This document shows, one piece after another, positions 19,383 to 55,000 of a stretch of DNA of 64,000 bases. The stretch is from positions 1-64,000 of the forward strand of contig JADFZQ010000002.1 in assembly GCA_015232455.1 (NCBI GenBank). The letters run 5' to 3'. The notes under the pieces are model-generated. The model was not told the origin of the DNA and ran no database searches. It saw nothing but the letters and a program-made list of their open reading frames with translations. The position numbers and the translations under genes are program-made. The stretch is from Desulfamplus sp. (GTDB lineage: Bacteria > Desulfobacterota > Desulfobacteria > Desulfobacterales > Desulfobacteraceae). The first letter of the stretch is position 1; each line of letters opens with the position of its first letter.

Positions 19383-19517
19383 AAACCTTACTTTGTCTGA
19401 ATCACGGATTTTTCATTGATTAAGTGATTGCACGGATTAAAAATCAGTGCAATCGGTGTAATCAGGTTAATCAGTAATTCAGACATCCTAATTTTTAATC
19501 AGGATTGGAGGAAAGAG

Positions 19518-21080
19518 ATGAAAAAAGAACCTGCAAGACAATTTAACCTTGTTGATGAAGATTGGATTCCAGTGGCTGGAGAGGGGAAGGTCAATTTAAA
19601 GAGAATTTTTACTGATCCTACCCTTAAAGCTCTTGGTGGAAATCCTATTGAAAAGATAGCTCTAACCAAACTGCTTCTTGCAATTGCCCAAGCAGCATAC
19701 ACACCAAAAAGTGATGAAGATTGGAGAGAATTAGGGGCAAAAGGCATGGCAGAAAAAGCGTTAAATTATCTTGAAGAAAAAAAAGATTGTTTCTGGCTGT
19801 ATGGAGATAAGCCTTTTTTACAGATGCCTTCGATTAATAAGGCACAAATACAGAGTTTTAGTGCTGTACTTCCTGATATAGCAACGGGCAATACAACAAT
19901 CCTTATTGAAAGTCAGGTTGAAAGAACATTAAAAAATGATGAAAAAGCCCGCCTTCTTGTGTTTTTATCAGGTTTTGCTCTTGGAGGTAAAAAGACAGAC
20001 AACAGCGTTGTTTTGACAAAAGGGTACTCTGGAAAAACAAATGACAAAGGAAAACCTGCTACAGCTAAACCTGGTCCATCAATTGGATTTTTGGGTTATC
20101 TGCATTCATTTCTTTGTGGGAACTCTATTTGTGAAAATATCTGGCTTAATTTAGCAACACAACAAGATATTAAAAATATTGGTCAGTTTAATAAAGGAGT
20201 TGGAATACCGCCTTGGGAGCGTGTGCCAGAAGGTGAAAACTGTCCCGCAGCAATTGAACTTAAATCAACTTTAATGGGAAGACTTATACCGTTATGCCGC
20301 TTTACATTACTTAGTGATAATGGAATGCACTATTCAGAAGGAATTGCATACCCAAGCCACAAAGAAGGAGGCTTTGATCTATCAATTGCAGTAGATTTTT
20401 CCAAAAAAAATTCAAAAGCAATATGGGTTGATCCTGATAAAAGACCATGGCGAGAATTGACATCACTTCTTTCATTCTTTTCATCAGAAGGTGATGCGAA
20501 ATTTGATTGTCCGCAGCTTAGGCTTTCGATCTATCGAGCAAGAAAAGCAGTAAAGCAGTTCAGTATATGGTCTGGTGGTCTTAAAGTGAGCAGCAATGCA
20601 GGAGAACAATTTGTCTCTGGTAGTGATGATTTTGTTGAATCTGAAGCTCTTCTTAAAGCTGAGTGGTTAGGAGAAATTTGGTTTACCAAACTAAAACAAG
20701 AAATGGAGATACTTCAAGAGGTATCCAAAAATCTGTATGGCTCAACCATTTCATATTTTAAGCATCAAAAAGCTGATGGAAAAAAACAGGCAGAACAATC
20801 AACCCACCTATTCTGGCAACTTAGCGAACGAAGATTTCAGGAACTTATTGATTCCTGTGGTGATACAAGCGGAAATGAAACCAAAGCAATGCGTTATTTT
20901 TTCATAGAATATGCAAATCAGGCATACAACACATTCTGTCCAAGAGATACAGCACGGCAAATTGATGCGTGGGCTGCCTGCCGACCAAAATTATCAAAAT
21001 TTATGCCTGATTTACCAAAAAACATTACAGACCATAAAAAGGAGAGCGTAGAACAATGGGAACAGATGGAGATGTTTTAA
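19518..21080 (+). CDS. casA: Cascade large subunit CasA (Cse1/Cas8e)
   Basis: 520 residues from the ATG at 19518, preceded by GGAGGAAAG; an upstream in-frame ATG at 19428 lies in AT-rich non-coding sequence. The N-terminal FNLVDEDWIPV motif and the following KLLLAIAQAAY segment are diagnostic of Cse1. In the complex it recognises the PAM and recruits Cas3. It overlaps casB by 25 bases. Confidence 0.93.
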   Translation: MKKEPARQFNLVDEDWIPVAGEGKVNLKRIFTDPTLKALGGNPIEKIALTKLLLAIAQAAYTPKSDEDWRELGAKGMAEKALNYLEEKKDCFWLYGDKPFLQMPSINKAQIQSFSAVLPDIATGNTTILIESQVERTLKNDEKARLLVFLSGFALGGKKTDNSVVLTKGYSGKTNDKGKPATAKPGPSIGFLGYLHSFLCGNSICENIWLNLATQQDIKNIGQFNKGVGIPPWERVPEGENCPAAIELKSTLMGRLIPLCRFTLLSDNGMHYSEGIAYPSHKEGGFDLSIAVDFSKKNSKAIWVDPDKRPWRELTSLLSFFSSEGDAKFDCPQLRLSIYRARKAVKQFSIWSGGLKVSSNAGEQFVSGSDDFVESEALLKAEWLGEIWFTKLKQEMEILQEVSKNLYGSTISYFKHQKADGKKQAEQSTHLFWQLSERRFQELIDSCGDTSGNETKAMRYFFIEYANQAYNTFCPRDTARQIDAWAACRPKLSKFMPDLPKNITDHKKESVEQWEQMEMF

Positions 21081-21607
21081 AAAGAAAAGGACGAGGTGAA
21101 CGTTTTGCAGATTATGTAATTCAACGAATAAACGGCAAAGAGCATGGTTTAGGTAAAGATAATGCCTTTGGAGCAATATTAAGAAGAGCTGATAATCCTG
21201 CTACTGAATATCAGGCGTGGGAATACCTTATCTCATTTGGATGCGACATTGAAAAACCTTGGGAACGCCTGCCATTTTGCACAATTGGTGCAGCTTTGGC
21301 ACGAGCAAAACCTGAAAAAGACGGAAGGTTTGGAATTGGTAAAAGCCTTGCCTCTTGTTATGAAGATGGAAAAGATTCAGACCCTGCTAAAGCTAAATTA
21401 AGAAGGCTTCTTGCCTGTGATTCTATAGAAGAGGTTTGCAGCATCTTAAGACCATTATTAAGCCTTATTCAATCAAACAGTGTGCCTCTTTGCTATGGTA
21501 GGCTGTTAGATGAACTTCTATATTTTGGCGATGGTTCTAAAAAGAAAATCCTCTGGGCATCTGATTTTTATGGAAGGAGGTCAGATGATGATTCTCTCAA
21601 TGCTTAA
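21056..21607 (+). CDS. casB: Cascade small subunit CasB (Cse2)
   Basis: 183 residues, the normal length. The segment WEYLISFGCDIEKPWERLPF and the arginine-rich helical C-terminal half (KLRRLLACDS) fit the Cse2 family, which forms the dimer along the belly of Cascade. The start lies within the end of casA and the end overlaps cas6e by 23 bases, showing translational coupling. Confidence 0.92.
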   Translation: MGTDGDVLKRKGRGERFADYVIQRINGKEHGLGKDNAFGAILRRADNPATEYQAWEYLISFGCDIEKPWERLPFCTIGAALARAKPEKDGRFGIGKSLASCYEDGKDSDPAKAKLRRLLACDSIEEVCSILRPLLSLIQSNSVPLCYGRLLDELLYFGDGSKKKILWASDFYGRRSDDDSLNA

Positions 21608-22256
21608 ATTGAGCAGGGCTGACTGTAATGCTTTAAACATCAAAGATATATATAGCATTCACAAAGTTATTTATTCTCTTTTCCCACAACCTGACAATGA
21701 AAATACTCAGCAGCAAAAAGAAGAACAACCTTATGGAAATAAGCCTCATACAGATAAAGCAGAAAAATTATCTTCTCGTGATTTTCTGTTTGTTGATAAA
21801 GGCGGAGACTTTCATGCAAGAGAGATTTTAATTTTATCCTTGTCTCAACCTGCTTTGCCTGAATATGGAGAAATTTCTTCAAAAATAATACCAGAATCAT
21901 TCTTGCAAATGGACAACTACGGTTTTGAGGTAGTTCTTAATCCTGTTAAACGAGATAACAAAAGCGGTAAATTGATCTCTGTTAGAGGCAGGCAAAATCT
22001 TTTGCAATGGTTTATTGATAAAACAGAAAAAGGAGAACTTGGATTTACAGTTGATTCTAAAACGCTCCAAGTAAACCGTGAAGGTGTGCTGCGTTACCAA
22101 AAAAATGGAGCAACCTGCACACACAATACAGCAACATTTAAAGGTAAACTCAAAGTTACAGACCGTTCCAAATTTATCCAAACTTTTGAAAAAGGGATTG
22201 GTCGGGCAAAAGGGTTTGGATTTGGGCTTTTGCAGATTGTGCCTATAACTATTTAA
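21585..22256 (+). CDS. cas6e: crRNA-processing endonuclease Cas6e (CasE/Cse3)
   Basis: About 223 residues. The start is at 21585 (two ATGs in a row) because GGAAGGAGG lies four bases upstream. H26 in IHKVIYSLFP sits where the catalytic histidine of Cas6e is found. The C-terminal glycine-rich motif GIGRAKGFGFGLLQIVPI is diagnostic. It cuts the repeat hairpin and would leave an 8-nt 5' handle (GTGTTTCY). The gene lies before cas7 and cas5, unlike the E. coli order, where it follows them. Confidence 0.92.
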   Translation: MMILSMLKLSRADCNALNIKDIYSIHKVIYSLFPQPDNENTQQQKEEQPYGNKPHTDKAEKLSSRDFLFVDKGGDFHAREILILSLSQPALPEYGEISSKIIPESFLQMDNYGFEVVLNPVKRDNKSGKLISVRGRQNLLQWFIDKTEKGELGFTVDSKTLQVNREGVLRYQKNGATCTHNTATFKGKLKVTDRSKFIQTFEKGIGRAKGFGFGLLQIVPITI

Positions 22257-22368
22257 AATTTTATCGCCATTTAGCTTTAATTCATAGATGGCAAGTTGAG
22301 TTATAAATAAATTGAAGTGTTTTTATACACATTTAAAATCTAAACAAAAAATTAAGGAGATCTCTGTA

Positions 22369-23544
22369 ATGAACGCTAATAATCCATACCGCAATGTCCG
22401 CATTGAATTTCATATTCTTCAATCTTTTCCTGTATCTTGTTTAAATCGTGATGATGTAGGTGCACCAAAAACCGCAATGATAGGCGGAACTTTAAGAGCC
22501 AGAGTTAGCAGCCAGTGCTGGAAAAGAAGTATTAGACTTACAATGAAAGAGCTTGGCATTTCAATTGGAGATAGAACAAAATTGATTAACAAACTTATCT
22601 CTGATGAGTGCAAAGCATTAGGAGCAACTGACGAACAGGCTGAAAAGTGCGGTAGAGAAGTTGCAGCAGTCTTTATTAAAGAAAAAAGCGATAGCAAGCA
22701 AAAAAAAGGAAAGAAAGAGGAAATTGATGAAGATGATAATGTTGGTTCGTCAGAAGAATCTTCTGGAAAAAGTGATGCATTGCTTTTTATCAGCAAAGAC
22801 GAGGTAAGAACTATTTCACAAGCACTAAAAGATAACGGCTTTAATACAGAATTTTCAGAGGATAAAGTTGACTCTAAAGGAAAGGCTAAAACATCTAAAA
22901 TTGATATTAAAAAGAAGATAGAGTCTCTTATTGGAAAACCTAAATTTTCATTAGATGGTTTGGACATAGCACTATTTGGAAGAATGGTTGCTCAAGCTGC
23001 TAATCTAAATGTTGAAGCTGCATCATCTTTCAGCCATGCAATATCTACCCATAAGGTAACTAATGAAGTGGAATTTTTCACAGCACTTGATGACTGCAAC
23101 ACAGAACAAGGTTCAGCACACATGGGAAGTCTTGAGTTTAATTCAGCCACATATTACCGCTACATCTGTCTTGATATGGGGCAGCTTTGGGAAAATCTTG
23201 GCGGACAATCTATATCTGAAGCTGTAGAGGCATTTGTAAAATCTATTTACCTTGCTGTTCCCTCTGCACGCCAAACCACTCAAGCAGGATATTGTCCTTG
23301 GGAATTTGCAAAGATATTTGTTCGTAAAGGTCAGCGGTTGCAGATGCCTTTTACAACTGCTGTAAAACTTAAAAACAATGGATTTATTGATTCAAGCAAA
23401 GAGGCATTGTGTGAATATCTGAGCAAAAAAGAGAAACTTGCTGGCTCATTGTTTGGCAAAATTAAAGATTTTACCTTTGGAGAAGATGAAAATTTCAATA
23501 TTGATAAGCTCATTGAATCCATTCAAACAATAATTAAAAAATAA
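22369..23544 (+). CDS. cas7: Cascade backbone subunit Cas7 (CasC/Cse4)
   Basis: 391 residues from the ATG at 22369, with AAGGAGA at 22354-22360. Conserved segments: FHILQSFPVSCLNRDDVG, SSQCWKRSIR, the FSHAISTH motif and the C-terminal PSARQTTQAGYCPWEF. It forms the six-copy filament on the crRNA. An inserted K/E/D/S-rich loop lies at about residues 106-136 (KQKKGKKEEIDEDDN and following), in a region that is shorter in typical members. Confidence 0.93.
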   Translation: MNANNPYRNVRIEFHILQSFPVSCLNRDDVGAPKTAMIGGTLRARVSSQCWKRSIRLTMKELGISIGDRTKLINKLISDECKALGATDEQAEKCGREVAAVFIKEKSDSKQKKGKKEEIDEDDNVGSSEESSGKSDALLFISKDEVRTISQALKDNGFNTEFSEDKVDSKGKAKTSKIDIKKKIESLIGKPKFSLDGLDIALFGRMVAQAANLNVEAASSFSHAISTHKVTNEVEFFTALDDCNTEQGSAHMGSLEFNSATYYRYICLDMGQLWENLGGQSISEAVEAFVKSIYLAVPSARQTTQAGYCPWEFAKIFVRKGQRLQMPFTTAVKLKNNGFIDSSKEALCEYLSKKEKLAGSLFGKIKDFTFGEDENFNIDKLIESIQTIIKK

Positions 23545-23697
23545 CCTTACCACATATATTCTTAACGGTCATAAATTTAGTTTTTTTTATTCAATCCTTC
23601 AGCCGTGGGGTTAGTGCATAAAAGAAGCCCTTTTAAGAGGGCTTGGGTAAAAATTAGCCCGTAGCTTTAGCTTAGGGCGTAAAGAAAGGTGTAAGAT
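23545..23697 (+). other. Hairpin-containing gap inside the cas operon
   Basis: 153 bases between cas7 and cas5, unusual in an otherwise overlapping operon. It contains AAGCCCT/AGGGCTT (23625-23644) and a second imperfect hairpin GCCC..GGGC just after (about 23658-23680). The second resembles the GCCCTGAAA-type palindrome at 12077-12098. No T-run follows either, so full termination is unlikely; it looks like a repeat insertion or a point of partial attenuation. Confidence 0.5.
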
Positions 23698-24426
23698 ATG
23701 GAAAACAATAAATATATACTTCTCTGGCTTGAAGCTCCCCTCCAATCATGGGGTTCAGATTCCAAGTTTGGGCGTAGAGATACTCTGCCTTTTCCTACAC
23801 GATCAGGGGTGCTGGGTATTGTTCTTTGTGCACTTGGAGCGTCAGGAGAGCAAAAAGAGCTTCTTGCACGTATGGGACTGCCGCTTCGCCAGACTGTAAT
23901 ATCTTGTATATCGGCAAAAGAGACCAAGCAAGGTGTTACAAAAAGAGAGCGAGACCCTTTTTTAACTGATTTTCAGATGGTTGGCAGCGGATATGATGAT
24001 AAAGACCCTTGGGAGAAATTGCATATCCCAAAAACAAACGATGGAAAACCTGCTGTAGGTGGCGGAACAAAGCTGACTTACAGATACTATCTTCAAAACG
24101 CTGTATTTGCAGTGATTATGGAGACTCCTTCTGACCTTGCAGAATCTTTTGCCTTTGCATTGCAAAATCCTGTTTATGATCTCTATCTTGGTCGCAAAAA
24201 CTGTGTTCCTACAGAATTTATATATCAAGGAACATTTGACAGTGAAAAAGATGCAGAATCTCGTGTTTTATCATTTATGGAAGATAAAAATCTGATTGAG
24301 GATTTTCGTGTTTTAGATGGCGAACAGAGTGAAGGTGATATGATGATGACATTAAATGATGTCCCTGTCCAGTTTGGAACTGTAAAAAAATACAGAGACA
24401 GACGTGTTACGGTGGTGCGATCATGA
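23698..24426 (+). CDS. cas5: Cascade subunit Cas5 (CasD)
   Basis: 242 residues. The N-terminal LWLEAPLQSWGSDSKFGRRDT and TRSGVLGIVLCALG segments are the Cas5e signature. It binds the 5' handle of the crRNA. Its TGA overlaps the cas1 ATG (ATGA). Confidence 0.93.
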   Translation: MENNKYILLWLEAPLQSWGSDSKFGRRDTLPFPTRSGVLGIVLCALGASGEQKELLARMGLPLRQTVISCISAKETKQGVTKRERDPFLTDFQMVGSGYDDKDPWEKLHIPKTNDGKPAVGGGTKLTYRYYLQNAVFAVIMETPSDLAESFAFALQNPVYDLYLGRKNCVPTEFIYQGTFDSEKDAESRVLSFMEDKNLIEDFRVLDGEQSEGDMMMTLNDVPVQFGTVKKYRDRRVTVVRS

Positions 24427-25382
24427 ATATAAACGATAGAGAGTTGGAGCTAAATAAAATTTCATCTGATGATGAGCTATTTTCGGCATTACAACTAACT
24501 AATGCCGAAAATAGCTACAAACACGAAGGTAAAAAAAGGCTATTTGTCAAAATAACAAGAAATAGTCTTCCACAAATAAAAGACAAATATCCCTTTCTCT
24601 ATCTTGAACACGGTAGATTATCAATTGATGATAGTAGCGTGAAATGGGTTGATTCCGATGCTAACGTAATTCGTCTTCCTATTGCCACAATCAATACTAT
24701 TCTTTTAGGACCTGGAACAAGTATAACTCACGAGTCAGTAAAAGTTATGGCTGCTGCTAATTGCTCAATCTGCTGGGTAAGTGAAGATGGTCTGGTGTTT
24801 TATGCTGTTGGTCAAAGCCCTACATCTGATTCAAGAAATATGAGAACACAAATGCAGATAGCTTCCGATCCAAAAAAATCTTTAGAAGTTGCAAGAAGAA
24901 TGTATGCCAGAAGATTTCCAGACCAAGATTTAAAGGGAAAAAATCTTAAAGAGATGATGGGTATGGAAGGTCATAGAGTGAACCATTATTATGCTGAAAT
25001 GGCTGAAAAATATGGCGTTGGGTGGAAAGGTCGTGTTTATAAACCCGGTAAGTTTGAGCTAAGTGATATAACAAATAAAATATTAACTTCCTCAAATGTT
25101 TCATTATATGGGATTTTAACATCAGCGATTTATAGTATGGGATACTCTCCACATATTGGTTTTATCCATTCAGGGAGTCCATTACCGTTTATCTATGATA
25201 TGGCAGATTTATATAAAGATAAGCTCTGTATTGACCTTGCTTTTGCATTGACTAAAAAAATGGGAGGCAGATACAGCAGGGAGCTTGTTGAAGAGACATT
25301 TATAAATAGGGTCATTGAAATGGATATACTTGGAATAGTTGGCAGAGATATTAAAGCAATGTTGGAGGGAAGTGATAAATGA
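24423..25382 (+). CDS. cas1: CRISPR integrase Cas1 (type I-E)
   Basis: 319 residues. Metal ligands align with E. coli Cas1: E182 in MEGHRV, H249 in FIHSG, D259 and D262 in IYDMADLYKD, with the same spacing between the last three. The N-terminus has about 40 extra residues compared with E. coli Cas1. The ATGA overlap with cas5 supports this start. With Cas2 it inserts new spacers at the leader end of the array. Confidence 0.94.
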   Translation: MNINDRELELNKISSDDELFSALQLTNAENSYKHEGKKRLFVKITRNSLPQIKDKYPFLYLEHGRLSIDDSSVKWVDSDANVIRLPIATINTILLGPGTSITHESVKVMAAANCSICWVSEDGLVFYAVGQSPTSDSRNMRTQMQIASDPKKSLEVARRMYARRFPDQDLKGKNLKEMMGMEGHRVNHYYAEMAEKYGVGWKGRVYKPGKFELSDITNKILTSSNVSLYGILTSAIYSMGYSPHIGFIHSGSPLPFIYDMADLYKDKLCIDLAFALTKKMGGRYSRELVEETFINRVIEMDILGIVGRDIKAMLEGSDK

Positions 25383-29338: not shown

Positions 29339-32098
29339 TCATTGATTCAATGGGAAACTTCTATGTTGAAATCCATCATAAACATCAGACATGCTGAAGA
29401 AATTGGGATCAAATTGAGGTTTGCCATCAGCTCCCATAAGAATATTACCAGATTCACCAAGAGGTATCATGCTCTCAACTCTGATAGGTCCTGAGCTTCC
29501 CATCTCTACACAATGTGCATATGTTGATCTTGATGAGGTAGGAATTTGATGCAGAACACCTAATATTTCGTGCTTATAAGAAATATTACCTCGTTTATCT
29601 GTTCCCCAAGGCATTTCACCCAATTTTGTCAACGCATTGTCTAAGGCAGCAACAATAATAGCATCAAGTGTCTGGGGTGCTGTTTCATCTACTTTATTTT
29701 CAAACCAATTGTAATTATTCTTAATAGTTGAATTTAAGTTTGGTAATCCATGTAAAAGAAGATTAAAAAGAACAATTCTGTTTTCAGTAACACCAAGTTC
29801 GTCTTCAAATGTCAATCTAAGAACTTCGCTTATCCATTGATTCATTAAAATCCAAGCATCTGAACGATCGTTGCCGTTAGCCCAGTTAGATTCTCCTCCA
29901 TCAACAAAATGTCCATCCCATTCATTAAGTAAAGATATAGCATTTATACGAGTATCAGTTTTTGCAGATTCAACCGCAGGAATAAAATCTGCCTTAACAT
30001 ATTTCCATGGATTACCACCATCTCCGTAAGTCTCAAATTTAGATGATAAATACTCATTTCTAACAGAATCTGTAGTTGAGATATACATAGCAAGATTTCT
30101 TACATCTTCAAAAGTAAGATTGTCATGTGTTGATAAATAATCTTCAAGAACATGTGCCCTGTGAAATGGACCAAAGTAATATGTAGGTGTGTTTGATGAA
30201 TTCATATAGTCATGGCTTGATCTACTATTCCATCCGCTATAAAAACCTCTTGCTGCATTCCGAGAATGCGATCTTGGTTTATATACTACAGGGTTAGACC
30301 ACTCAGCCGTACCATCACCCGGCTGTGGAAATCTTGAGTCAATACCTTCTGGTCTTACAGGATCAAAACCAGACATCCAGTATGCAATATTACCATCATT
30401 ATCTGCGTAGCAGTAATGTTGAGAAAGAGATACTCTGTCAATAGCATCACCAAACTCGTCCATACTTTGTGCTCTTGCAAGATCAAGATAGGTCTTTACG
30501 ATTTCAAACTCTTTACCCCAATGTGAATATTTCCATGATATTACAGGTTCAGAATTAATTACAGGTCCGTGGGAAGTCCTATAAATCGGCAATTTAACAT
30601 CTTCTTCACCAGCAACCTTTATGGTTTCTGTACGATGCAAAAATATAGCTGAAGGCTCTTCAATATAGTAGTCAACGGTATGTGCATGTCCTACTTGCAT
30701 TGACCATGCGTGGTGAGGAGTTCTTCCTATAACAATTGCTGGCATACCAGGGATTGTCATTCCTGAAATATTTAGACCAGCACCTTTTATAGAACCTTCT
30801 GTAACAATAGATGGTGCTGAAAAATTAAAAGCATGATCCATTTGGGGACCTGAATAAAGTATTGGATTACCACTGGCTGTCTTAGTTCCTGAAACAACCC
30901 ATGCGTAACTTCCAATCTTTACATAGGCATTTATCTCTTTGAGATTTGAAACAATCTCTTCATTTTTTGCTTTCATATAATCTGCAATTTCTTGAAAATC
31001 ACAGTTTTGATCAATGTTATTTGCATAAATATAATTCTTGTTTTTATCTTTATTGCTAGTTTGAGGCTCTGATTCTTTTGCAATGTAGGTTACTGCATCA
31101 GGATCATCTTGCCATCTTAAATCTTGGAACATTGTCAAATAATCATCTGGAAACTGTGCTTTTAATTTTTGCAATAGAGCAATATTTTCAATTTGTCCCT
31201 GTTCAGTTGCTTCACCATCAAAAAAACGCAGCATATTGGTTGCCCATGCTAAGACATCTGTTGTAGTCCAATCTTCAGGAACAAAATCAATGCCAAGTTT
31301 TTTACCAAGTATATGGAATTCATAAGGCAATTTACTGCGGTCACTCTTCACCTCAGCAATTCTGCGATTAAAACCCGCCACATATCCATTAATAGCGGAT
31401 TTTGATTCAGGATCAAGGGCATTAAAGCCTTGTTGGTACTCTTCATCAGAATATCCTGTCGTTCTAACCAAAATATCGCTTGAAAGCTGAGTTGAACCAA
31501 AAATTTCAGCAAGTCTGCCTCTTCCAACTCTTCTGTATTTTTCTGCCTGCCAAAGACGATCTGTAGCTACAGCATATCCCATTGCTTCAAAAACAGTGTA
31601 AGTGTCTGTTTTATCGTCTCCTGTTATAAACCACACCCCCTTATCATCTCTTGAAGTAGTTACAGGTAGCTTAAGTGATTCAAGAGAATCAATATCAAGT
31701 TTCCACAAAAGTTCAGAACCTGAAGTTGCGTTATTATAAGGGAGTAAGCGGAACTTAAGGTGTGTGCCATAGTAATTTGCACAATCTACTGTCAAAATAA
31801 GATCAGATGGAACTGCAAAAGGGGCAGCACAAGCTTGTTCTAAAGCTGTTTGAGAAGAGTCAATTACTAAGAAAGAGTCAAGTTTCCAAAGAAAATCAGA
31901 CTGCATATCACTATTTGGATTATTATATGGCTTCAATGTAAACTTAAATGACACATCGCCATATTTTGCACATGGCACAGAGAAACTTAAATCTTGGTTT
32001 ATGCTAATACAATTAATGCCAGCTATTGCATTAACTGCAATAAGCAAATTAAAAAACACCATCATCAATACAATTACTTTTTGAGTCTTTTTCATCAT
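29339..32098 (-). CDS. Secreted penicillin acylase family (Ntn) hydrolase with N-terminal duplicated module
   Basis: 919 residues. Signal peptide at residues 1-27 (hydrophobic VIVLMMVFFNLLIAVNA). Then come two copies of a roughly 50-residue module (about 30-79 and 90-137), each with two cysteines (C30/C43; C90/C106) and ending in PYNN..LWKLD. The acylase part starts near residue 150, with the TVFEAMGYAVATDRLWQ motif of the alpha chain. The likely self-cleavage site and N-terminal nucleophile is S397 in IGSYAWVVSGTKTASG. Family members hydrolyse amides such as penicillins or acyl-homoserine lactones in the periplasm or outside. Substrate unknown; single gene. Confidence 0.85.
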   Translation of the reverse strand: MMKKTQKVIVLMMVFFNLLIAVNAIAGINCISINQDLSFSVPCAKYGDVSFKFTLKPYNNPNSDMQSDFLWKLDSFLVIDSSQTALEQACAAPFAVPSDLILTVDCANYYGTHLKFRLLPYNNATSGSELLWKLDIDSLESLKLPVTTSRDDKGVWFITGDDKTDTYTVFEAMGYAVATDRLWQAEKYRRVGRGRLAEIFGSTQLSSDILVRTTGYSDEEYQQGFNALDPESKSAINGYVAGFNRRIAEVKSDRSKLPYEFHILGKKLGIDFVPEDWTTTDVLAWATNMLRFFDGEATEQGQIENIALLQKLKAQFPDDYLTMFQDLRWQDDPDAVTYIAKESEPQTSNKDKNKNYIYANNIDQNCDFQEIADYMKAKNEEIVSNLKEINAYVKIGSYAWVVSGTKTASGNPILYSGPQMDHAFNFSAPSIVTEGSIKGAGLNISGMTIPGMPAIVIGRTPHHAWSMQVGHAHTVDYYIEEPSAIFLHRTETIKVAGEEDVKLPIYRTSHGPVINSEPVISWKYSHWGKEFEIVKTYLDLARAQSMDEFGDAIDRVSLSQHYCYADNDGNIAYWMSGFDPVRPEGIDSRFPQPGDGTAEWSNPVVYKPRSHSRNAARGFYSGWNSRSSHDYMNSSNTPTYYFGPFHRAHVLEDYLSTHDNLTFEDVRNLAMYISTTDSVRNEYLSSKFETYGDGGNPWKYVKADFIPAVESAKTDTRINAISLLNEWDGHFVDGGESNWANGNDRSDAWILMNQWISEVLRLTFEDELGVTENRIVLFNLLLHGLPNLNSTIKNNYNWFENKVDETAPQTLDAIIVAALDNALTKLGEMPWGTDKRGNISYKHEILGVLHQIPTSSRSTYAHCVEMGSSGPIRVESMIPLGESGNILMGADGKPQFDPNFFSMSDVYDGFQHRSFPLNQ

Positions 32099-33725: not shown

Positions 33726-34540
33726 TCAACTATCTCCTGACAGATTAATGAAGTAATCTTCAAAGTAATGGTGGATATTTTTGAATACTTTGATAATTTC
33801 AGGATCAAAATGAGAACCCGCTGACTCTATAATCATTTTACAGGTTTCAAGATGGGATTTTTCAGGTTTATAAACTCGTTTGGAACGCAGTGCATCATAG
33901 ATATCGGCTAAAGCCATTATTCTCGCTTCAATAGGAATAGCTCATGTAAAGGGCTTGAAAGGAATATATTATCAATAAATTCTTCATTAATAGAACTGCA
34001 ATAATCAGGGTGCGTCCGCATTGCTTCAGCGAGAAGTTTGCAAAAAATCTGCACTCTTTCAATATGCTTGCCTGTGTCATCATCACGAGATTCAGCGAGC
34101 TTGGCAAGTGCAAATATAGTGGACATGTTCGCCTCAAGAATCTCAGCCTGTTTTTTCCGATCTTCAAGTTCCGCAGCAACAGATATATCTTCAACAGTGA
34201 ATGCCAGACGATTTTTATTAAGCACCGAGCATTTAATCCTGATTCTTCTTACTCCGTGCCTGTCCACAGCAATATCGTAATTATTGAAAATAAATTTAAC
34301 TCCCTTATCAATCCCTGATTTGACATTTGTTTTGAGGCTGCTATCAAAGGAGTTCAAGACTTCGATCAAATTTGGAATCTCCGTTCCGTCATAAATATCA
34401 ATGATTTTCATAATCAATTGAACCATAAACGGATTCAGACGGAGAACTTTTCCGTTTTCATCGGTTTCGCATATACCTATAGGAGTCTGATAGATGAACT
34501 CCAACAGTTCATCGTTCAAATTATCGTTTGATGAGCACAT
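33726..34540 (-). pseudogene. PAS / HD-GYP phosphodiesterase broken by an internal deletion
   Basis: The upstream frame (34540-33917) has a PAS-type domain (LEFIYQTPIGICETDENGKV), a linker helix and the start of an HD-GYP domain (SRDDDTGKHIERVQIFCKLL), up to LSSPLHE. Normally HDIGK, a long helical core and the GYP motif follow. Here the sequence jumps to PIEARIMALADIYDALRSKR, which is the region after GYP, in a different frame. Roughly 65 residues including the HD aspartate and GYP are missing. The second part could still be made from the ATG at 33917, which overlaps the first stop (TAATG). Cyclic-di-GMP hydrolysis should be lost. Confidence 0.8.
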
Positions 34541-34877
34541 AATTTAATTGTAACTCTTTGTTTTTAATTAAACGCAATTGCACTTTAATAGGTTTGACCT
34601 TGAAGCTCAAAATGTATGGTATTGTCTCATCAAACTCTTTTTTTTCATCAAACTTCAAGGCAACTAAATAGTTATTCATACATGGTGCTACATCTAAAAA
34701 AATATGTTTATTGAGGATAAACTCCTTTGAATAACCCGAATTATCCGATTCTGTCTTGTTGTATTCCCTAATGATTCCGTTGTTATCAAACCCAATAATC
34801 CCAAATGGGCAGCTATCTTTTTCCTCCTGTTTTGCGGACTCAATTTTTACCCCAATGAATTTATCTTCAAAATCCAT
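34521..34877 (-). CDS. Photoactive yellow protein-like PAS protein
   Basis: 118 residues from the ATG at 34877 (AGGAG nine bases upstream). It aligns without gaps, at an offset of three, to the chromophore region of Halorhodospira PYP (125 residues). Cys66 in DVAPC corresponds to Cys69, which carries p-coumarate; Tyr39 (REYN) to Tyr42; Glu43 to Glu46; Ser47 replaces Thr50; Tyr49 replaces Arg52. The C-terminal IKVQLRLIK and NYVLIKR match TKVKVHMKK and YWVFVKRV. It overlaps the PAS/HD-GYP gene by 20 bases and is 60 bases downstream of the chemoreceptor gene. A blue-light role is inferred; enzymes for making p-coumaroyl-CoA are not in the window. Confidence 0.7.
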   Translation of the reverse strand: MDFEDKFIGVKIESAKQEEKDSCPFGIIGFDNNGIIREYNKTESDNSGYSKEFILNKHIFLDVAPCMNNYLVALKFDEKKEFDETIPYILSFKVKPIKVQLRLIKNKELQLNYVLIKR

Positions 34878-34936
34878 GATATTCCACTCCTGACTGGGCA
34901 TTATTTATCTGTTTTCTAAACCATTTTAATATAGTG

Positions 34937-37000
34937 TTATTTCGTTGTTTTGAATTTCCCCAATATTGTTTGAAGCTCTTCCCCAATTTGCTTGAGCTTT
35001 TGAGCTTGCATCTTCAACTGTGCCGAACCTTTTGCTCCTTCGCTTGCAGCACTATTAACTTTTTCAATATCTTTACTTATGCTTACTGAAGCAGTTGAAG
35101 ATTCTCCCACATTACGGTTTACCTCATGAACACCATCTGCAACTTGAGCAATATTTGAAGAGATTTCAGAAGTGGTTACAGACTGTTCTTCCACTGCCGC
35201 CGCAATTGTGCTGATGATATTGTGAATATCCTCTACAACTGAGGTTATACTATTTATTTTTTCAACAGAGCTTTGTGTTCTCACTTGAATAGTATCAATT
35301 TTTATTTTTATATCCTGAGTAGCGTTTGCGGTTTGTGCTGCAAGGTCTTTAATCTCATTTGCTACAACTGCAAAACCTTTTCCAGCAGATCCAGCTCTTG
35401 CTGCTTCAATGGTTGCATTTAATGCCAAAAGATTAGTCTGATCAGATATTTCGTTAATGACCTCTGTAACCTTACTTATTTCAAGAGCTGCTTTTCCCAA
35501 CTCTTCTATCTGATTTGAAGTCTCTTTTGCTTGAGTTAAGGCATTATCCGAGATATTTCTTGCCCGTTCAGAGTTTTTTGTAATCTCATTAATAGTTGTG
35601 GTCATTTGTTCAGAAGCACTTGCAACCATTGATAAATTTACTGAAGATTGCTCCATTGAAGCTGCAACAGCACTTAAATTATTTGTCATCTGTTCTGTGG
35701 CACTGCTAACATTCATGGAAAGCGAAGAGGTTGTTTCTGTTCCTTTTGCAAGAGTATATGCAATATCAAGAAGCTCAGATGACGACTTATCCATAACGTT
35801 TGCATTTTTTACACTCTCTTTAATAATGCCTTGCAGATTCTCCATAAACTTGTCAAACCAGTTGGCAAGCTCACCAATCTCATCACTGTTTTTTATATCA
35901 AGCCGTTTTGTTAAATCTCCTTCTCCTTCGGCTATATCCTTAAGTCCTGATATAACTTTTCTAATCGGTCTTACAATTGAGCTACTGACAAGAAGCATTA
36001 CAATACCGCAAATTAACATTCCAAAAATAGCAATTGTGATAATTGACAAGGTAAGTTCATTAGAATTTTTCTCTATTTTATCCATAGGGATACTTACAGC
36101 AAAGCTCCATGGTGTTATAGATTTTCCAATATTAAATGGAGTTATTACAAAATAGTTATCAGTTCCTTTTACAATGCTCTTTTTATGAAAAGTATATTTT
36201 TCTCCTTTTAAAACAGCTTCTCTAAATGAATCTTGAATCTCTTTAGGCTGGCGTTGGACAGCATCTTTACCAATAGAATCAGAATCAGGGTGGGCAGCCA
36301 TAACCGCACTGTTGGACATCACAAAAACATAACCTGTTTCATAGGGTTTAATTTTTTCTGCCAACTCTTGAAACAGTGTAAGTGTAATATCAACGCCTGT
36401 TACTCCAACTACTTTGCCTTTTACTTTAATAGGCACAACAACACTTGTTATAAGAACCTTTTTTCCAGCTACTGGGTAGAGATACGGTTCCATGATAGTT
36501 TCTAAACCACTTTTTTTAATAGGAACATAATAACCGCTGCCATCAGAAGTTTCATAATCAACAAGAGGCTCAACTGCGATTATTCCAGCTCCGCGATTCC
36601 AATACGGCACATAACGCCCTGTTGAGTCATGCCCTGGTTTATTTATAAAATCAGTGTCTCTGCCGTCAAGGGCATTTGGTTCCCAGCATGTCCAAACAGC
36701 TAAGAAATCAGGATTCATCTCAAGAACCTGTTTAAGAATATTATCCATTACATTACGGTAAAGATTACCATTTTGTTTCATTCCTTCAAAAGTATGGGCA
36801 AGGGTTCTGGTTGCGTCCATTGCAACCTCCAAATTAGCTTGCAGCTTTGTTCCATAACGGTATGCCATCTCTTCGGCAAGCTCTTCTCCTGTGTGATTTG
36901 CCATTTTTCTTGCTTCAAAATTAACAAACACAATTGTGCTACCAAAAGTAAAAAACACTACCATACCAACAATAAAAATAAGTTTTGTTCTGATTTTCAT
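34937..37000 (-). CDS. Methyl-accepting chemotaxis protein with double-Cache sensor
   Basis: 687 residues. TM1 about residues 7-27 ([19 protein letters not shown]), a periplasmic dCache domain (contains [15 protein letters not shown] and [13 protein letters not shown]), TM2 near 310-335, HAMP, then the cytoplasmic signalling coiled coil with the conserved hairpin tip ([31 protein letters not shown]). dCache domains of this type often bind amino acids or other small organic molecules. It is probably co-transcribed with the PYP-like gene (60-base gap). Confidence 0.92.
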
Positions 37001-46072: not shown

Positions 46073-49000
46073 ATGTTTACAAGAATACTAAATTCTCGAC
46101 TACCATTAATTATCTATAACCCATCAAAACTCTTTTCCCTTAATTTTTTTAAAGCTGTGTTTAATGCTGGAGGCTTACCTGTATTTGACACTGAATTTAT
46201 GTCATTACACGAGATTCTTGAAGGCGTTAAAGCACTTATCAGGGCAGATATTCTTTTTGGGATTAGACTTATCGATCCTGACAAGTTTCTTCTTGCTCAA
46301 ATAGAAGAGCTTCAACCATCACGCTTAGACACTCTTGTTTTGTCAATCGAAACTGACAAACAATCATTAAGTGATAAAGATTCTTCAACTGACAATCAAT
46401 CATCTATTGGAAAATCAATTAGAAGATGGTCTAACCAGACAAAAATTATCCTTGAAGTTCGGGAGATTAACATAAACGATAGGATAAAAGATATTGATCC
46501 TCATGCACTTATACTTAAAGGCAATGAAGCAGGCGGAAGAGTCTCAAACTACTCATCATTTATACTTATGCAGTGGTATCTTAAAAACAGTGAATTTCCA
46601 ATTTTCATTCATGGCGGTGTAGGTAGAAATACTGCATCAGGCATGTTTGCGGCTGGAGTCAGCGGTGTTGTTTTAGATAGTCAAGTATGGCTTGCTGAAG
46701 AGTCTCCATTATCTGAAAATTTCAGAAATCTTTTATCAAGCCTTGATGAGAGCGATTCGCTTGAAATTATAATTGATAATAAACATATCTTTCGCGTGTT
46801 TGCAAAATTAGGAACTAAAATTGCAAAAGAGCTGAAAGAGAAGGCGATTTTGATCTCTGACAGTTATATTGATGATAAATCTGATTACAAAGATACGAAA
46901 ACAAATTTAATCAATGATGATAGTATTAATGATGATAAATCTAATCCTGAAAATAGTGAAATAAATAGAAATAATGTTTTCCAGATTTATAAAGAGATTG
47001 GGGACAATATAACACCTCTTGACAAATCAGACGCTAAAGCTGTCCAGTCTCTCTTTTTTATTGGGCAAGATGGATTTTTTGCCAAAAATTTTGCCCTTAT
47101 CTCTTTTAGTAATAATCTAAATAAATCCACTTCATCTTCTTCAAAGCAACTACCTTCAAATGAGCCATCTTCAAATCAATTTTTTCCCAATCTTAAAGAT
47201 ATGATTTCAGGATTTTTTAAGGAGATAGGAGAACAACTTAGCTATGTTGATGCTTTTGATCCAATGAAACCTGACTCTGCAATGGCAAAGGATCATGGCA
47301 CACACCTTCCTTTGATTCAGGGACCTATGGCAAATGTGAGCGATAACGCTGATTTTGCAGCAAAAGTTTTGGAAGCTGGGGCATTGCCATTTTTTGCAGT
47401 AGGCAGTCTCCCTCCAGCTCTTGCCGAAACTATGCTCAAAAATGGGTCTGAAAAAGTCTCTGTGTTTGGTGCTGGACTTGTGGGAATTGAGGCATTTAAT
47501 CCAGCAGTTGAAAAGCATCTTGAGCTTGTAAGAAAATATAAAGCACCGTTTGCTCTATTTGCTGGTGGTATTCCATCTCAAGTTATTGAGCTTGAAAAAG
47601 CTGGCACTAAGACATATCTGCATACGCCTTCAATTTCTATGATGGAAAATGCAATAAAAAGTGGCTGCACACGCTTCATCTTTGAAGGCAGAGAGGCTGG
47701 AGGTCATGTGGGATCACTTTCAAGCCTTGTGCTGTGGGAAGCTGCAATTGGAAAATTAAAAGAGAAATTAGCAGCAACCGCTCAATCAATGGAGAGGACA
47801 GATTCAGTTTTAACTCCTTCAGTTGAGGAAATTAGAGGAGTTAATCAATTAAGTTTGGTTTTTGCCGGCGGAATATCGACCTGTTTTGCATCATGTTTTA
47901 TCTCTGGCATTACATCTTGCCTTGCTGCTAAGGGGATTAAAATTGGTATCCAAGTTGGAACTGCATATCTTTTTTCAAAAGAGATTGTTGAGACAAAAAG
48001 CATAAAAGAGCAGTATCAAACAATTTTGTGTGAAGAGAATGAAACCGTTGTCATTGGAAATAGCGTTGGACTTGCTTCAAGAACAGCACCAACAGATTTT
48101 GCCAAAATGATGGTTGAAAAAGAAAAAGAGATGCTGAAAAAAGGCGAAAAGTTAGAAGATCGCAAAAAAGCATTTGAAAGAAATAATATTGGCTCTCTTT
48201 TGATTGGTGCAAAAGGATTTTTGCCAGATTTTAAAAAGGCTGGAGAAGAGAATTACACTTGGTTTGAAGGAGAAGAACACAAAAAACGGGGTAATTTCTT
48301 ATCTGGCGATGCTCTTGCATTTTTTAAAGAGAAAACTACTGTTGATCAAATTCACTCAATGTTTTTTGATATGGCTCTTCCTAAATCATCTAATGCCCAC
48401 ACCTATTTACCTAATGTTAAAGCCACTCTTGTGAGTAACCTAAATCGCCTTGAGGTCTTATCTTCTGAGACAAAAAGTATTAATGACGAAATAGCTGTAA
48501 TTGGTATGGGTTGCATCTTGCCTGATGCCAAAAATCCAGAAGAACTTTGGGAAAATATACTCTCAAAACGTTACTCAATAAGAGAGATGGAAGATAGCAG
48601 AATTAGAAAAGACCTTTACTACGATCCTGATAAAACAGCAGAAGATAAATCTTACACAATGCTTGCTGGCTATATCAAAGATTTTGTCTTTGATTATGAA
48701 CGTTTTGGTTATGATGAAAATAAGGCTAACCGCCTCTCAAGAAGCCAACAAATTCTTCTTATGGCTGCCTATCAAGCTGTTGAAAATGCAGGATATTTAG
48801 ATGAAAATCTTCATTTTGGAAAGAGAAACTCTGCCCTTGCAAGCCTCACCGTTGGAGAAAACTTTCCAACCAACGGGAGAAAAATAAGTGGAACATCTCC
48901 TGAGAAAACAGCAGTAATTATAGCAACTTGTCTTGGAAATGAGCTTGGAAATGAGCTTCAACTTAAATATCACTTTCCAGAAGTTCTATCCATGTTACGA

Positions 49001-52000
49001 AGAACCGAAGAGTTCAACAAACTAAGTGAAGATGAGAAGTCAGTGGTTATATCAGAGCTTCAAAAAGGTATGGAGGGCAGACATCAAGGTTATGACCCTG
49101 TTCATGGTATGCTTTTAAATATTGAAGCATCAAGAATAGCAAAACATCTTGGTATTCGCGGAGTGAATTACGTTGTTGATGCTGCTTGTGCATCTTCATT
49201 TAGTGCTATTGATGCTGCTATTAAAGAGCTTCTATCTGGTGATTGCGATCATGTTATTGTTGGAGGTGTCAACACTCATCTTGCACCAGAATCGTTTGTT
49301 GGATTTTGCAAAATGGGTGCATTATCTGCAAAAGGCTCTTTTCCGTTTGATGAAAGAGCAGATGGCTTTGTCCTTGGTGAAGGAGCTGCGGTTTTTGTGC
49401 TAAAGAGAGTCAAAGATGCTCTGCGGGATAATGACAATATTATAGGTGTAATTAAAGGGATAGGCGGAAGTTCAGACGGTAGAGGCAAAGCTATTGCAGC
49501 ACCAAATGTAAAAGGTCAGATTCTTGCATTAAAGCGTTGTTATGAAAATATGGATAACAGAGTTTCACCAAATGATATTGGATTTATTGAGGCTCACGGC
49601 ACTTCAACAATCATGGGAGATCAGGCAGAACTTCAAACTCTTAAAGAAATTTATGCTGTCAGCAACCTTTCTGTCGTCCAAAATAGAGGTGGTTCTTCTC
49701 ATTTACCCACCAATGGGGGAAACGTAGATAGCTTAAAGAAAATAGGTATCAGCTCTGTAAAATCTCAGATTGGACATCTACTTGGTGGTGCTGGTGCTGC
49801 TGGACTTGTTAAGGCTTTGCTTGCTGTTCAAAAAGGAATTTTACCTCCTAACGCAAATTTTGAGAAACTTTCGCACAACCACGACCTTGCAGGAACAGGG
49901 CTTTATGTGATTGAGAATCCAGAACCTTGGATTACCCCTGAAAATAAGACAAGAATGGCGGCTATCAGCTCCTATGGTTTTGGTGGAATCAACTACCATC
50001 TAGTTATTGAAGAGTTCCGTTTAGCAGATACTATTTCAAACTTGCTCTGTAGCTCAACAAATGAAGAGAAAGATTCCTCGTCATCTTATTCATATATCGC
50101 ACTACCTCGCAAAATATTTGCAAATCCTGATTACGATTTTAATGAAGATCGTATTGTTATTGCTGGCTTGGGGGTATGTCTGCCCGGTGGACGTGGAGTT
50201 AATCATTTTTGGGAAAATCTAAAATCAGGACAAAAGCAGTTATCAGAAATCCCAAAAGAGCGTTTTGACAATCAATCTTATGCACAATTTGACAAAAAAT
50301 CTCATTTTCACCTGCCAATGGTCAAAGCTGGTGTAATTCAAGATTTTAAATTCAACAACATCAAGTATAGAATGCCTCCATCAATTGTGAGATCGTTAGA
50401 TCGTTCACAGTTGCTTGGATTAGATGCAGCAGATGAGGCAATAAATTCGTCAGGGCTTTCAAAGTTTATTCAATCGTCAGCTACACAATCAGCACAAACT
50501 AAATCACACCTATCTAAATCTATGGTGAGAGATTTAAAATCTATCACAGTTGCTTCATCTCAAGGGCAATCCAATAAAATCGGCGTGATTCTTGGCACAA
50601 TTCAAGGGGAGAGGCAGAGTAAAAATATTTTAAGAGTGCGAAAAAATTTTATCGCTGAAATAATTGAAAAAAGCGGTGTCATTGATTCTGACAAATCAAA
50701 AAAGATTGCATCTGAGCTTGTTCAAGCAATAAGGCAGGAAATTCCTGAAAATAACGAAGATACAACACCAGGGCTTTTATCAAACATCATATCAGGGCGA
50801 ATTGCCAACCACTTTGGTTTAAATGGAGTCAACTATGTGGTTGATGCATCTTGTGCATCTTCAGTTATAGCGATTCGTAATGCCATGAGAGATATAGCAT
50901 CAAAACAACTTGATTTTGCCCTTACAGGCGGAGTTGATGCAAACCTTTATCCTGCTGTTTTAATGGCATTCAAAAGATTAGGGCTTCTATCATCTACAGA
51001 GCCAAGATTTTTTGATTCAAGAGCTGATGGCTATGCAATGTCAGAAGGTGCAGCAATTCACGTTTTGACAACTTTAAAAAAAGCAAAAGATGCTGGAATG
51101 GAGATTTTAGGAGAGTTAAGCGATTGCGTAGTTAAATCAAGCGTTCCTGATCATCTTCTTGCCCCATCTGAACAGACTTTTGTCTCCACAATAAACGAGT
51201 GCTACATAAAAAATGGAATAAGAAAACAAGATGTTGGCTATCTTGATCTCTTTGCATTTTCAAATATTATGGGCGATATGGTTGAAAAACAGGTGGTTGA
51301 AAAGTGTTTTGACCATATAAATAAATTGGCAATTCCTATTAGCCCCACCCCCGTCCCCCTCCCCAATGGAGAGGGGCAAAATAATTATCTGGAAAGCTAT
51401 AGAGAGCTATATTTTGGGAATATCAAAACCCAATTTGGATATTTTAAAGCTGCTAATCCTGCTGTTGCTTTGGCAAAAATGGTTCTGATGAATAAAAATA
51501 GAACTCTTCTGCCAAATTTTGATTACGATCCACAATTCTCAACTCTTAAAAACCCAATCATTGCTGGAAAAAACTATAACGCACCATCGCGGTTTGCTTT
51601 TAATGTAAATGGAATTGGTGGAAACCACTGCCATGCAGTTTTGAGTATGGTAAATCTTGAACTTATTTTTGGAACAGAGTCAGGAGTTGTGCAATCAACC
51701 GCGATTAAAGACACAGAGCTTAGAGAAAAAGAGGGTGCAATCTCTTATAACGTTCAACAACCTGAAATTATGAATCCAAAAAGAGAAAATATTGTAGCAC
51801 TTTTGTCAGGTCAAGGTTCTCAAAGCTCTGGAATGATGAAAGAGATATTTGAACGTGATCAAGATATTAGACAGGTTATGGAGCGTGGCGAGGCAATATT
51901 TATAGCCAAACGAGGCTATTCTCTATTAAATATTATGTTTAGCCAAGATGACAATAGAATAAATCTTACAGAAAATACTCAACCAGCGGTGTTTTTATCG

Positions 52001-55000
52001 TCAGCAGCAATATTTAGCAAATTGCAAAAAGATAGAGATTTTAACCCTGATTTTTTTATTGGTCATAGTGTCGGTGAATATACAGCCCTTTTTTGCAGCG
52101 GGATTTTAGATTTTGATGATGCCATGAAGTTAATCATTAAACGATCAGATTTAATGAAAGAGGCGGCTATTGAATATCCCGGCAGAATTATGGTTGTTTT
52201 TGGCAATGAAAAAGAGACAGCTTCACTTATAAAAGAATCTGGTGCATCATGGCTCTATATTACAAATAAAAACAGCGAAAAACAGACTGCAGTGTCAGGC
52301 AGTGAACAAGATATTGAGATTTTCTGTAAATTTTTAACATCAAGAAATGTTGTATATAAGCGGCTTAATCTCTCTGGGGCATTTCACACTCCTCTTTTTA
52401 GCAACGCTTCTGAGAAGCTAAAGAGTTATCTAAAAAATATAACCTTTAATGAGGTTGATTTTTCTCGTGTCATATCTAATGTTACTGCAAAACCATATCC
52501 TCAAGATGCAAACGAGATTAAAGAGCTTCTTGCAAAACAGATAACCACACCTGTTGAGTTTATAAAATCAATTGAATATGTGCATGGAGTTGGCAATAGT
52601 AGAGATACCCATTTTATTGAGATTGGACCACGCAAATTGCTGGTTAATCTCCTTAAACATATCAACATTAAAGATTATACAATTTCCGTTGCTTTAGATT
52701 CGATAGCCTCTGTTAAATCTGAAAAAGAGTTTTTATCAACTGTAAATGAGAATGCAATCTTAATTTCTGGTGTATCTGTTGGACTTCCGGGAAAAGCAAG
52801 ACGTGTCTTTTCATCTGATAATTTTGATATGATCCTTGATGGACGAAACTTTATTGAACCTTTAACATTAGAAGATCAAGAAAAGATCGTTGATAAAAAT
52901 ATCACCAGAATTTTAAAACAGCCTGACGGCAATGCCCGTTTTGTTGAGATTACAAAGACTGAAGATGTAATTCATCTTGCGGGTCAGCTTGGATATTTTA
53001 ACCTTAATGAAGAGTATGGAATAAAGGCACAATATGACATAAGCATGGCGTTGGCGGTTGCGGCTGGAATTGAAGCGTTAAAAGATGCGAGTATTCCGCT
53101 TGTAATGAAATATAAAACTCCATCAAGGTTTAAAGAATTTATTGCTGGAAAAACAGATTCAACAAATTTAAGTTTAACAAACTCAAGTTCAGGAGGTAAT
53201 TTCTCAAGTTCAGGAGCAGCTTTTGAGCTTATTCCTGATGGTTTTGCTCTTCCTGAAGAGATGCAAGATGAGACTGGTGTTATCGTAACTTCGCTATTTC
53301 CAAGCAACGAAACATTGATAAATGAGATGGAAAAATATTTCTACGATAGGCTCTTTCTAAAACCTTATGAGGAGTTTCAGAGTATCTATTTCTATCTTAT
53401 GGAAAATATAAAAGAGCCAGCAGTAAAAGAGCAGGTTACAGATTGGTTTTTTAAGATCAGGAAACGGAAAAGAGAAGAGCTTGGATTATACAAGTTTGAC
53501 CGCAATTTTATGGTTAATGCCTGTCCTTTAGGTTCTGCTCATCTTGCCCAAATTATAAAGGCAAAAGGTCCCAACACCCTTATAAGCAGTGCTTGTGCAT
53601 CAACAACGCAAGCAATTGGAATTGCTGAAGATTGGATAAAACTTGGACGGTGCAAACGGGTAATTGTCATTGGTGGTGAAAATGCGACATCTCCAGCACA
53701 AAATCAGTGGATTGGTTCAGGATTTTTAGCTCTTGGTGCTGCAACAGTTAAAAAACGTGTATCTGAAGCTGCCAAACCTTTTGACAGCGACCGCAACGGC
53801 ACGATTTTGGGTGCTGGTGCGGTGGGTCTTGTGGTTGAAAAAGCGTCTGAAGTTCATGCAAGAGGCATGAGGGGACAGGCAATTGTCCTTGGAACTCACA
53901 TGGCAAATAGTGCTTATCACACCTTCAACATTGATGTTGACCACATGGCAAGCCAGATGAAAAAATTTATCTCAAAGATGGAGAGAGAGCATAACCTAAA
54001 GCAATCTGAATATGCAGATAAACTCTTGTTTATGTCGCATGAAACTTATACTCCAGCTCGCGGTGGTAGTGCTGATGCTGAAGTTACTGCTCTAAAAACC
54101 GCATTTGGTCAGAATCTAAAAAACATCTGCATAACTAACACAAAAGGCTTTACAGGTCATACGCTTGGGGCAGCAATTGAAGATGTTGTTATGGTAAAGG
54201 CTCTACAGAAACGAAAAGCTCCGCCAATCGCCAATCTTGTAAATATTCCAGAGCATTTTAGAGAACTTAATTTTGCAACTATAAACGCAAGTGGTTCTAA
54301 CGTTAATTTAAGTAATTCTGGCTATACTGCTGCATCTTTAGATTCTGCTGGAGGACGCGGGGAAAAAGCAGAATACGGGCTGCATCTTGCTGCTGGTTTT
54401 GGTTCTCATTTTGCGTTTTTGTTTATCAGAAGGATTGAGGAGAGAGTTCACTCTGAATCTTATAATTCATGGCTCAAAAAAATTAGCGGAAGCGATAAGC
54501 CAGAACTAAAAATTATTGATAATATGCTCTGTGTTGTTGGAGAGAAAGCAACAAAACCTCTAAAACTGCCTGAACCTTCTATCCAAATCAAAGAGAAAAC
54601 AGATGCACAATTGCCTTCTTTCCAGATAAAAGAGGCTAAAATAACTCCAATCGCTTCTTTACCCGTTAAACATGGGAATGAGGTAATGCAGGTGGTTACA
54701 GATATAATTGCCAAACAGACGGGCTACACAGCAGATATGCTTGAACCAGAACTTGATCTTGAGGCAGACCTTGGCATTGATACGGTTAAACAAGTTGAGA
54801 TTTTTGCAAATGCAGCCTCTCATTTTGGCTTTGCAGTTCCAGAAGACCTAAAGTTGAGAGATTTAAACACCATCTCCAAACTTGCAAGTTATATTGACTC
54901 TAAAATAGGCTCTAATAGTATCTCTTCAACATTATTGCCAATCGCACAACATAGTGAGGTTGAGGTAGCATCTGCCCAAAATAGAGAGTCAATAATTGCT

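Follow-up and report, generated by a model that had tools for sequence, protein, structure and literature searches.

A divergent photoactive yellow protein gene and its proposed, unnamed PAS-fold partner domain in a Desulfamplus genome

Locus and family assignment

The stretch of DNA analysed here, called the window, comprises 64,000 nucleotides of a Desulfamplus sp. contig and carries an intact 118-codon gene on its minus strand (34521..34877, read from 34877 down to 34521). Its product is recognised by TIGR02373, the model for photoactive yellow protein (PYP); its predicted fold is that of PYP, and a tree groups it with clade-C-like sequences of that family. A first-pass annotation had proposed a 118-residue PYP-like protein at this position, and its coordinates do hold such a frame, on the minus strand. 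On our reading of the sequence, an AGGAG ribosome-binding site (within CAGGAG) precedes the ATG by about 10 nt and lies in the 59-nt gap (34878..34936, minus) between this gene and that of a methyl-accepting chemotaxis protein on the same strand (34937..37000, 687 aa; dCache, HAMP and MCPsignal domains by Pfam). At its other end, the PYP gene shares 20 nt with the start of a further minus-strand gene (33917..34540, 207 aa), which encodes an unnamed PAS-fold domain (residues 1-140; assigned by HMM, blastp and predicted fold) followed by the initial ~60 residues of HD-GYP. A 3' remnant of HD-GYP is found in another frame (IPIEARIMALADIYDALRS...; 33726..33938, minus), as identified by tblastn of an intact partner and by frame translation.

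The reading of the host as a sulfate reducer is sound, since the window also carries qmoC (491 bits against a cut-off of 300 bits) with adjacent qmoA/B-like genes (HdrA-type matches). GC3 is 37-38% in the PYP gene and its partner and 23-29% in their neighbours, a weak hint of acquisition; the viral contigs searched yielded no relative of the PYP. Elsewhere in the window, a same-strand row of reading frames (16536-25382) resembles by eye a type I CRISPR-Cas operon, a 919-aa reading frame (29339-32098) resembles by eye a penicillin-acylase-type amidase with no NCBIfam match at 1e-10, and a single reading frame of 3996 codons (46073-58063) encodes a giant multidomain protein.

The window gene encodes a true though divergent relative of PYP. 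TIGR02373 (photo_yellow) matches residues 6-118 with 59.6 bits (E 3.1e-16), compared with 16.9 bits (5e-3) for the generic PAS model of the same library, and a model built from 15 canonical PYPs only gives 51.6 bits. PDB sequence matches at E <1e-3 are confined to PYPs and to FAST tags derived from PYP. When the predicted model (pLDDT 89.6) is laid over crystal structures of PYP, Z is ~18 and the rmsd 1.8 over 117 residues, and the best non-PYP chain reaches a Z of 12.6. As the first-pass annotation had stated, Cys66, Tyr39, Glu43, Ser47 and Tyr49 align with Cys69, Tyr42, Glu46, Thr50 and Arg52 of Halorhodospira halophila PYP; the gap-free offset of three that it also reported holds up to about residue 77, beyond which three residues are missing and the offset becomes six. 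The window protein is a PYP homologue with Cys69, which is how the family is defined in PMC9664959, and it keeps the equivalents of Tyr42 and Glu46. The earlier view of a PYP-family protein, as opposed to an ordinary PAS domain, is therefore borne out by the PYP model, the structure and the retention of all three chromophore residues. Chance resemblance of an ordinary PAS domain to PYP, for which one might cite a weak Pfam match (20.9 bits for the best PAS model), can be dismissed, as PYP models and structures lie far ahead and none of 1000 shuffled versions of the protein exceeds 7.4 bits.

The protein shares with the canonical PYP of H. halophila the fold, the chromophore triad and the VAPC motif, but is only ~27% identical to it, replaces Phe62, Arg52, Phe96, Tyr98 and Met100, and is not encoded in an operon with p-coumaroyl-CoA ligase and tyrosine ammonia lyase (TAL). 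It also scores below the equivalog cut-off of TIGR02373 (143.05 bits), a model that covers only ~20% of PYP homologues according to PMC9664959.

Branch of the family and distribution

The window PYP is non-canonical and belongs to a divergent single-domain branch that fits the published "clade C" (Xing, Gumerov and Zhulin 2022, PMC9664959), for which reason we call it clade-C-like. The marks of clade C in that paper are the loss of Phe92, Phe96 and Trp119, an occurrence mostly in Burkholderiales, and adjoining GGDEF genes. The window protein carries Ile, Leu and Tyr at these three positions, and shares with clade C the retained Cys69, Tyr42 and Glu46, the single-domain architecture and an adjoining c-di-GMP gene. 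It differs from the clade as described there in having Ser50, Tyr52 and a Val where the clade conserves Met100, in a partner output of HD-GYP (truncated) as opposed to GGDEF, and in its anaerobic sulfate-reducing host. Our comparison set consists of six plasmid relatives and 80 genome loci, with residue counts taken over 87 clade-C-like relatives; Met100 is found in 83 of these 87, and the Desulforhopalus (L088) and Spirochaetes (L090) proteins have Val as the window protein does. The plasmid relatives and the 80 loci share a CMNN motif and very often carry Leu96, Ile/Val/Leu92 and Tyr/Phe119. Several of the relatives are annotated as "phosphonate transporter", as is also remarked in PMC9664959. 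The replacement of Arg52, which had been singled out earlier, is common in the family: Tyr occurs at this position in 4/87 relatives, and the consensus residue given in PMC12826048 is Leu.

The nearest sequences come from metagenome-assembled genomes (MAGs) of Desulforhopalus and Geobacteraceae (56% identity each) and of Spirochaetes (51%). In our tree, the clade-C-like sequences including that of the window are split from canonical PYP at 100/100, and the window protein pairs with Desulforhopalus (99/88) within a clade that includes the Geobacteraceae and Spirochaetes MAGs (99/99); this tree has long branches, is built on a short alignment without clade B sequences, and is not a reproduction of the published one.

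The first-pass annotation considered such a protein unexpected in a sulfate reducer. At the level of the group it is not wholly so, as Thermodesulfobacteriota are already listed among PYP-bearing phyla in PMC12826048, where they make up <1% of 984 PYP homologues, and 12 other genomes of the order carry a PYP. Including that of the window, PYP is present in 13/389 sampled genomes of the order. Eleven of these PYPs are canonical (L046-L056), ~59-66% identical to the canonical PYP of Indioceanicola, and four of the eleven (L052, L054, L055, L056) have an adjacent p-coumaroyl-CoA ligase. No PYP gene is present in the nine further genomes of the genus. In a phylum-wide search with TIGR02373, the window gene alone stands out (60 bits), with matches of <=32 bits in the other 183 genomes; these are mostly pieces of long multidomain PAS proteins and were not counted as PYP.

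The overlapping gene and its proposed partner role

The chemoreceptor named as a neighbour by the first-pass annotation is real, 59 nt upstream and on the same strand. The overlapping gene (34540-33917), which that annotation missed, is the more informative neighbour. Pfam gives no match to its product at 1e-3. By blastp, its first ~140 residues match the N-termini of all six of the six GGDEF proteins encoded directly after the plasmid PYPs, with E values down to 6e-14. An HMM built only from proteobacterial GGDEF partners, excluding the window and its near relatives, recovers the window partner at E 2.9e-16 and also finds the partners at L045, L088, L089 and L090. Structure prediction (pLDDT 92.4) gives the domain a PAS fold flanked by an N-cap helix and a C-terminal coiled coil, an architecture that, as modelled, would be typical of dimeric signal relay.

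We use the term PYP-partner PAS domain for an N-terminal domain of ~140 aa encoded directly downstream of a clade-C-like PYP, a set defined here, and the window gene belongs to it. Across four phyla, the domain starts no more than 100 nt downstream of the PYP stop codon in 75/80 related loci, one of the five remaining loci being a contig end, and it often also begins the following gene. The outputs that come after it vary: most are GGDEF, with GGDEF-EAL, EAL, histidine kinase (HisKA; by Pfam in L045, by motif in L090, L092 and L098) and HD-GYP (by motif in L088 and L089) also present. In the plasmid operons of Caballeronia, Rhizobium, Methylobacterium and Indioceanicola, the PYP is of the window's type and the downstream protein opens with the same partner domain; the output there is GGDEF and a p-coumaroyl-CoA ligase is often nearby. 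The Desulforhopalus and Geobacteraceae loci have a homologous partner and the same 20-nt overlap. In the Spirochaetes MAG, a CheW-like reading frame (L090 3438-3935, minus) lies divergent from the genes for the clade-C-like PYP and its partner histidine kinase.

The domain follows this type of PYP closely. Among the 389 genomes of the order, strong scores are confined to the two with a clade-C-like PYP, and three further genomes reach only ~6e-6. It was found neither beside canonical PYPs nor elsewhere in the genomes that carry them. The Geobacteraceae MAG (L089/G771) has three PYPs and five partner domains, three of the latter directly after clade-C-like PYPs. A search of the genus for orthologues of the partner gave matches mostly to its HD-GYP half and no full-length copy in a sister genome. 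We propose that the domain is the dedicated receiver of clade-C-like PYP. The argument for contact between the two proteins is drawn from gene order only, and a co-inherited two-gene cassette would look similar.

The two recent surveys, in their available parts, describe neighbouring GGDEF/EAL and kinase genes and no shared partner domain (PMC9664959; PMC12826048). PYP together with HD-GYP is likewise not mentioned in the literature searched, which covers part of the published record. Given this coverage, the partner domain is likely, rather than certainly, new to the literature.

Chromophore, output and alternative readings

The reading we favour, at a probability of roughly 0.6, is that of a p-coumarate-binding blue-light sensor that signals in trans through the unnamed partner PAS domain to an interchangeable output. 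The ligand attached covalently to Cys66 would be p-coumarate or a closely related phenolic acyl group, its phenolate held by Tyr39 and Glu43. Under blue light the chromophore would isomerise and the surface of the PYP would change; the PYP would signal by docking in trans on the PAS-fold domain of the overlapping gene, and this domain would couple the signal to whichever exchangeable output follows. In two Desulfobacterota MAGs, this output is an HD-GYP domain with both motifs intact, of the class that degrades c-di-GMP, and the signal would presumably affect c-di-GMP.

In the window strain itself, this output is probably dead. When the intact 376-aa partner of the Geobacteraceae MAG is compared with the window by tblastn, its residues 1-201 match in one frame and 277-339 in another; ~75 residues that span both the HD and the GYP motifs are missing, and there is a frameshift in addition. 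The HD and HHExxDGxGYP catalytic motifs are thus absent from the window partner, unlike in L088 and L089, where the HD-GYP domain is complete. In this region of the partner gene (33726-33941), the 3' remnant is intact up to its stop. The deletion could be either a mutation or an assembly error. Because the catalytic centre is lost, the pathway here is probably cut or decaying, unless a different protein is the target of the truncated partner. A PYP gene that is itself a relic, within an operon decaying after the loss of its output and encoding a protein with no present function, is the alternative that survives best, and we consider it possible though unlikely. The internal deletion and frameshift would fit it, as would the absence of PYP from the nine other genomes of the genus. 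However, the PYP frame and its ribosome-binding site are undamaged, as are the pocket residues and the partner's entire PAS domain, and the deletion may be recent, if it is not an assembly error.

As for the chromophore, the window PYP likely binds one, as its pocket suggests. Tyr42 is present in 86/87 and Glu46 in 87/87 clade-C-like relatives, and in an alignment of 38 sequences both columns are among only 14 invariant ones of 118. These two residues were outside our search pattern; Cys69 was part of it, and its conservation in the 80 loci is therefore by construction. A search for TAL and p-coumaroyl-CoA ligase, as the first-pass annotation had suggested, came out negative in the window's genome, which has no canonical pyp operon in the sense of dedicated ligase plus TAL. 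The best match there to the dedicated ligase model TIGR02372 is 43.8 bits, against 285-300 in positive controls, and the dedicated ligase of a relative used as query gave no match. The single aromatic ammonia lyase of the genome lies in a hut cluster, with neighbours that we take to be hutI, hutU and a GntR regulator, and carries an SH motif, presumably the mark of histidine lyases; we read it as HutH. The surroundings of this hutH are odd in that two trimethylamine-methyltransferase-like (MttB-like) genes appear, by eye, to flank it (G000:C81; L044 6858-11612).

Dedicated ligases were also not found in the genomes of the nearest relatives, and the Geobacteraceae MAG with its three PYPs lacks an aromatic lyase as well. 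These absences lend some weight to a second alternative, in which the fold and the cysteine are kept while light sensing is lost, the protein instead binding some other ligand of the thioester or thiol type, such as an aromatic acyl group derived from CoA, or serving as a redox or chemical sensor. We regard this as unlikely, and somewhat more so than a relic. The near invariance of Tyr42 and Glu46 is what p-coumarate phenolate would lead one to expect, and a redox role is further opposed by the lack of a second cysteine near the pocket, unlike in the proposed redox Ppr. Moreover, since published pyp operons mostly come without TAL (present in 5%), the missing ligase and TAL lower the case for p-coumarate and do not remove it. 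In Proteobacteria, p-coumaroyl-CoA ligase is often <=4 kb away from clade-C-like PYPs, and on a plasmid of Indioceanicola profundi (L057 1429-6574) a single run comprises pyp, p-coumaroyl-CoA ligase, an aromatic lyase, a clade-C-like PYP and a partner-GGDEF gene, an order that ties the two PYP types to a common chromophore supply. Together, these arrangements support p-coumarate. According to PMC9664959, no clade-C PYP had been photochemically characterised at the time of that survey.

A working blue-light sensor could instead signal through the chemoreceptor 59 nt upstream and give rise to phototaxis, as has been proposed for Leptospira and for MCP-PYP fusions. We consider this improbable. 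The shared strand, the short gap and the absence of a predicted terminator within it are compatible with such a route, and PYP-MCP links exist in published work; promoter-like matches in the gap are weak, and the scans for promoters and terminators do no better there than on shuffled sequence. However, the window receptor carries a dCache sensor of its own, in contrast to the sensor-less chemoreceptors adjacent to the clade B PYPs of Leptospira, and here another conserved partner exists. In the three nearest relatives, the surroundings of the PYP gene showed no chemoreceptor, and all three keep the partner domain. As a conserved partner of PYP, the chemoreceptor is thus rejected, the overlapping PAS/HD-GYP gene being found there in its place.

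Returning to the p-coumarate-binding sensor that signals in trans, how single-domain PYPs hand over their signal has been open since their discovery, and the two recent surveys describe the partner as unknown and infer it from gene neighbours (PMC9664959; PMC12826048). An unnamed domain found after clade-C-like PYPs in several phyla, with a changing output behind it, is a likely docking partner, and makes PYP signal transfer testable with two small proteins. More speculatively, and in our estimate quite unlikely, clade-C-like PYP and the partner PAS domain may form a modular two-protein sensor with freely swapped outputs that, in strict anaerobes without chromophore-making enzymes, reads environmental aromatic acyl groups besides or instead of light, an example being p-coumarate from lignin, which general CoA ligases would activate. 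In any case, the anaerobic members invite one to ask what role in sediment bacteria falls to a light sensor that lacks a chromophore pathway of its own.
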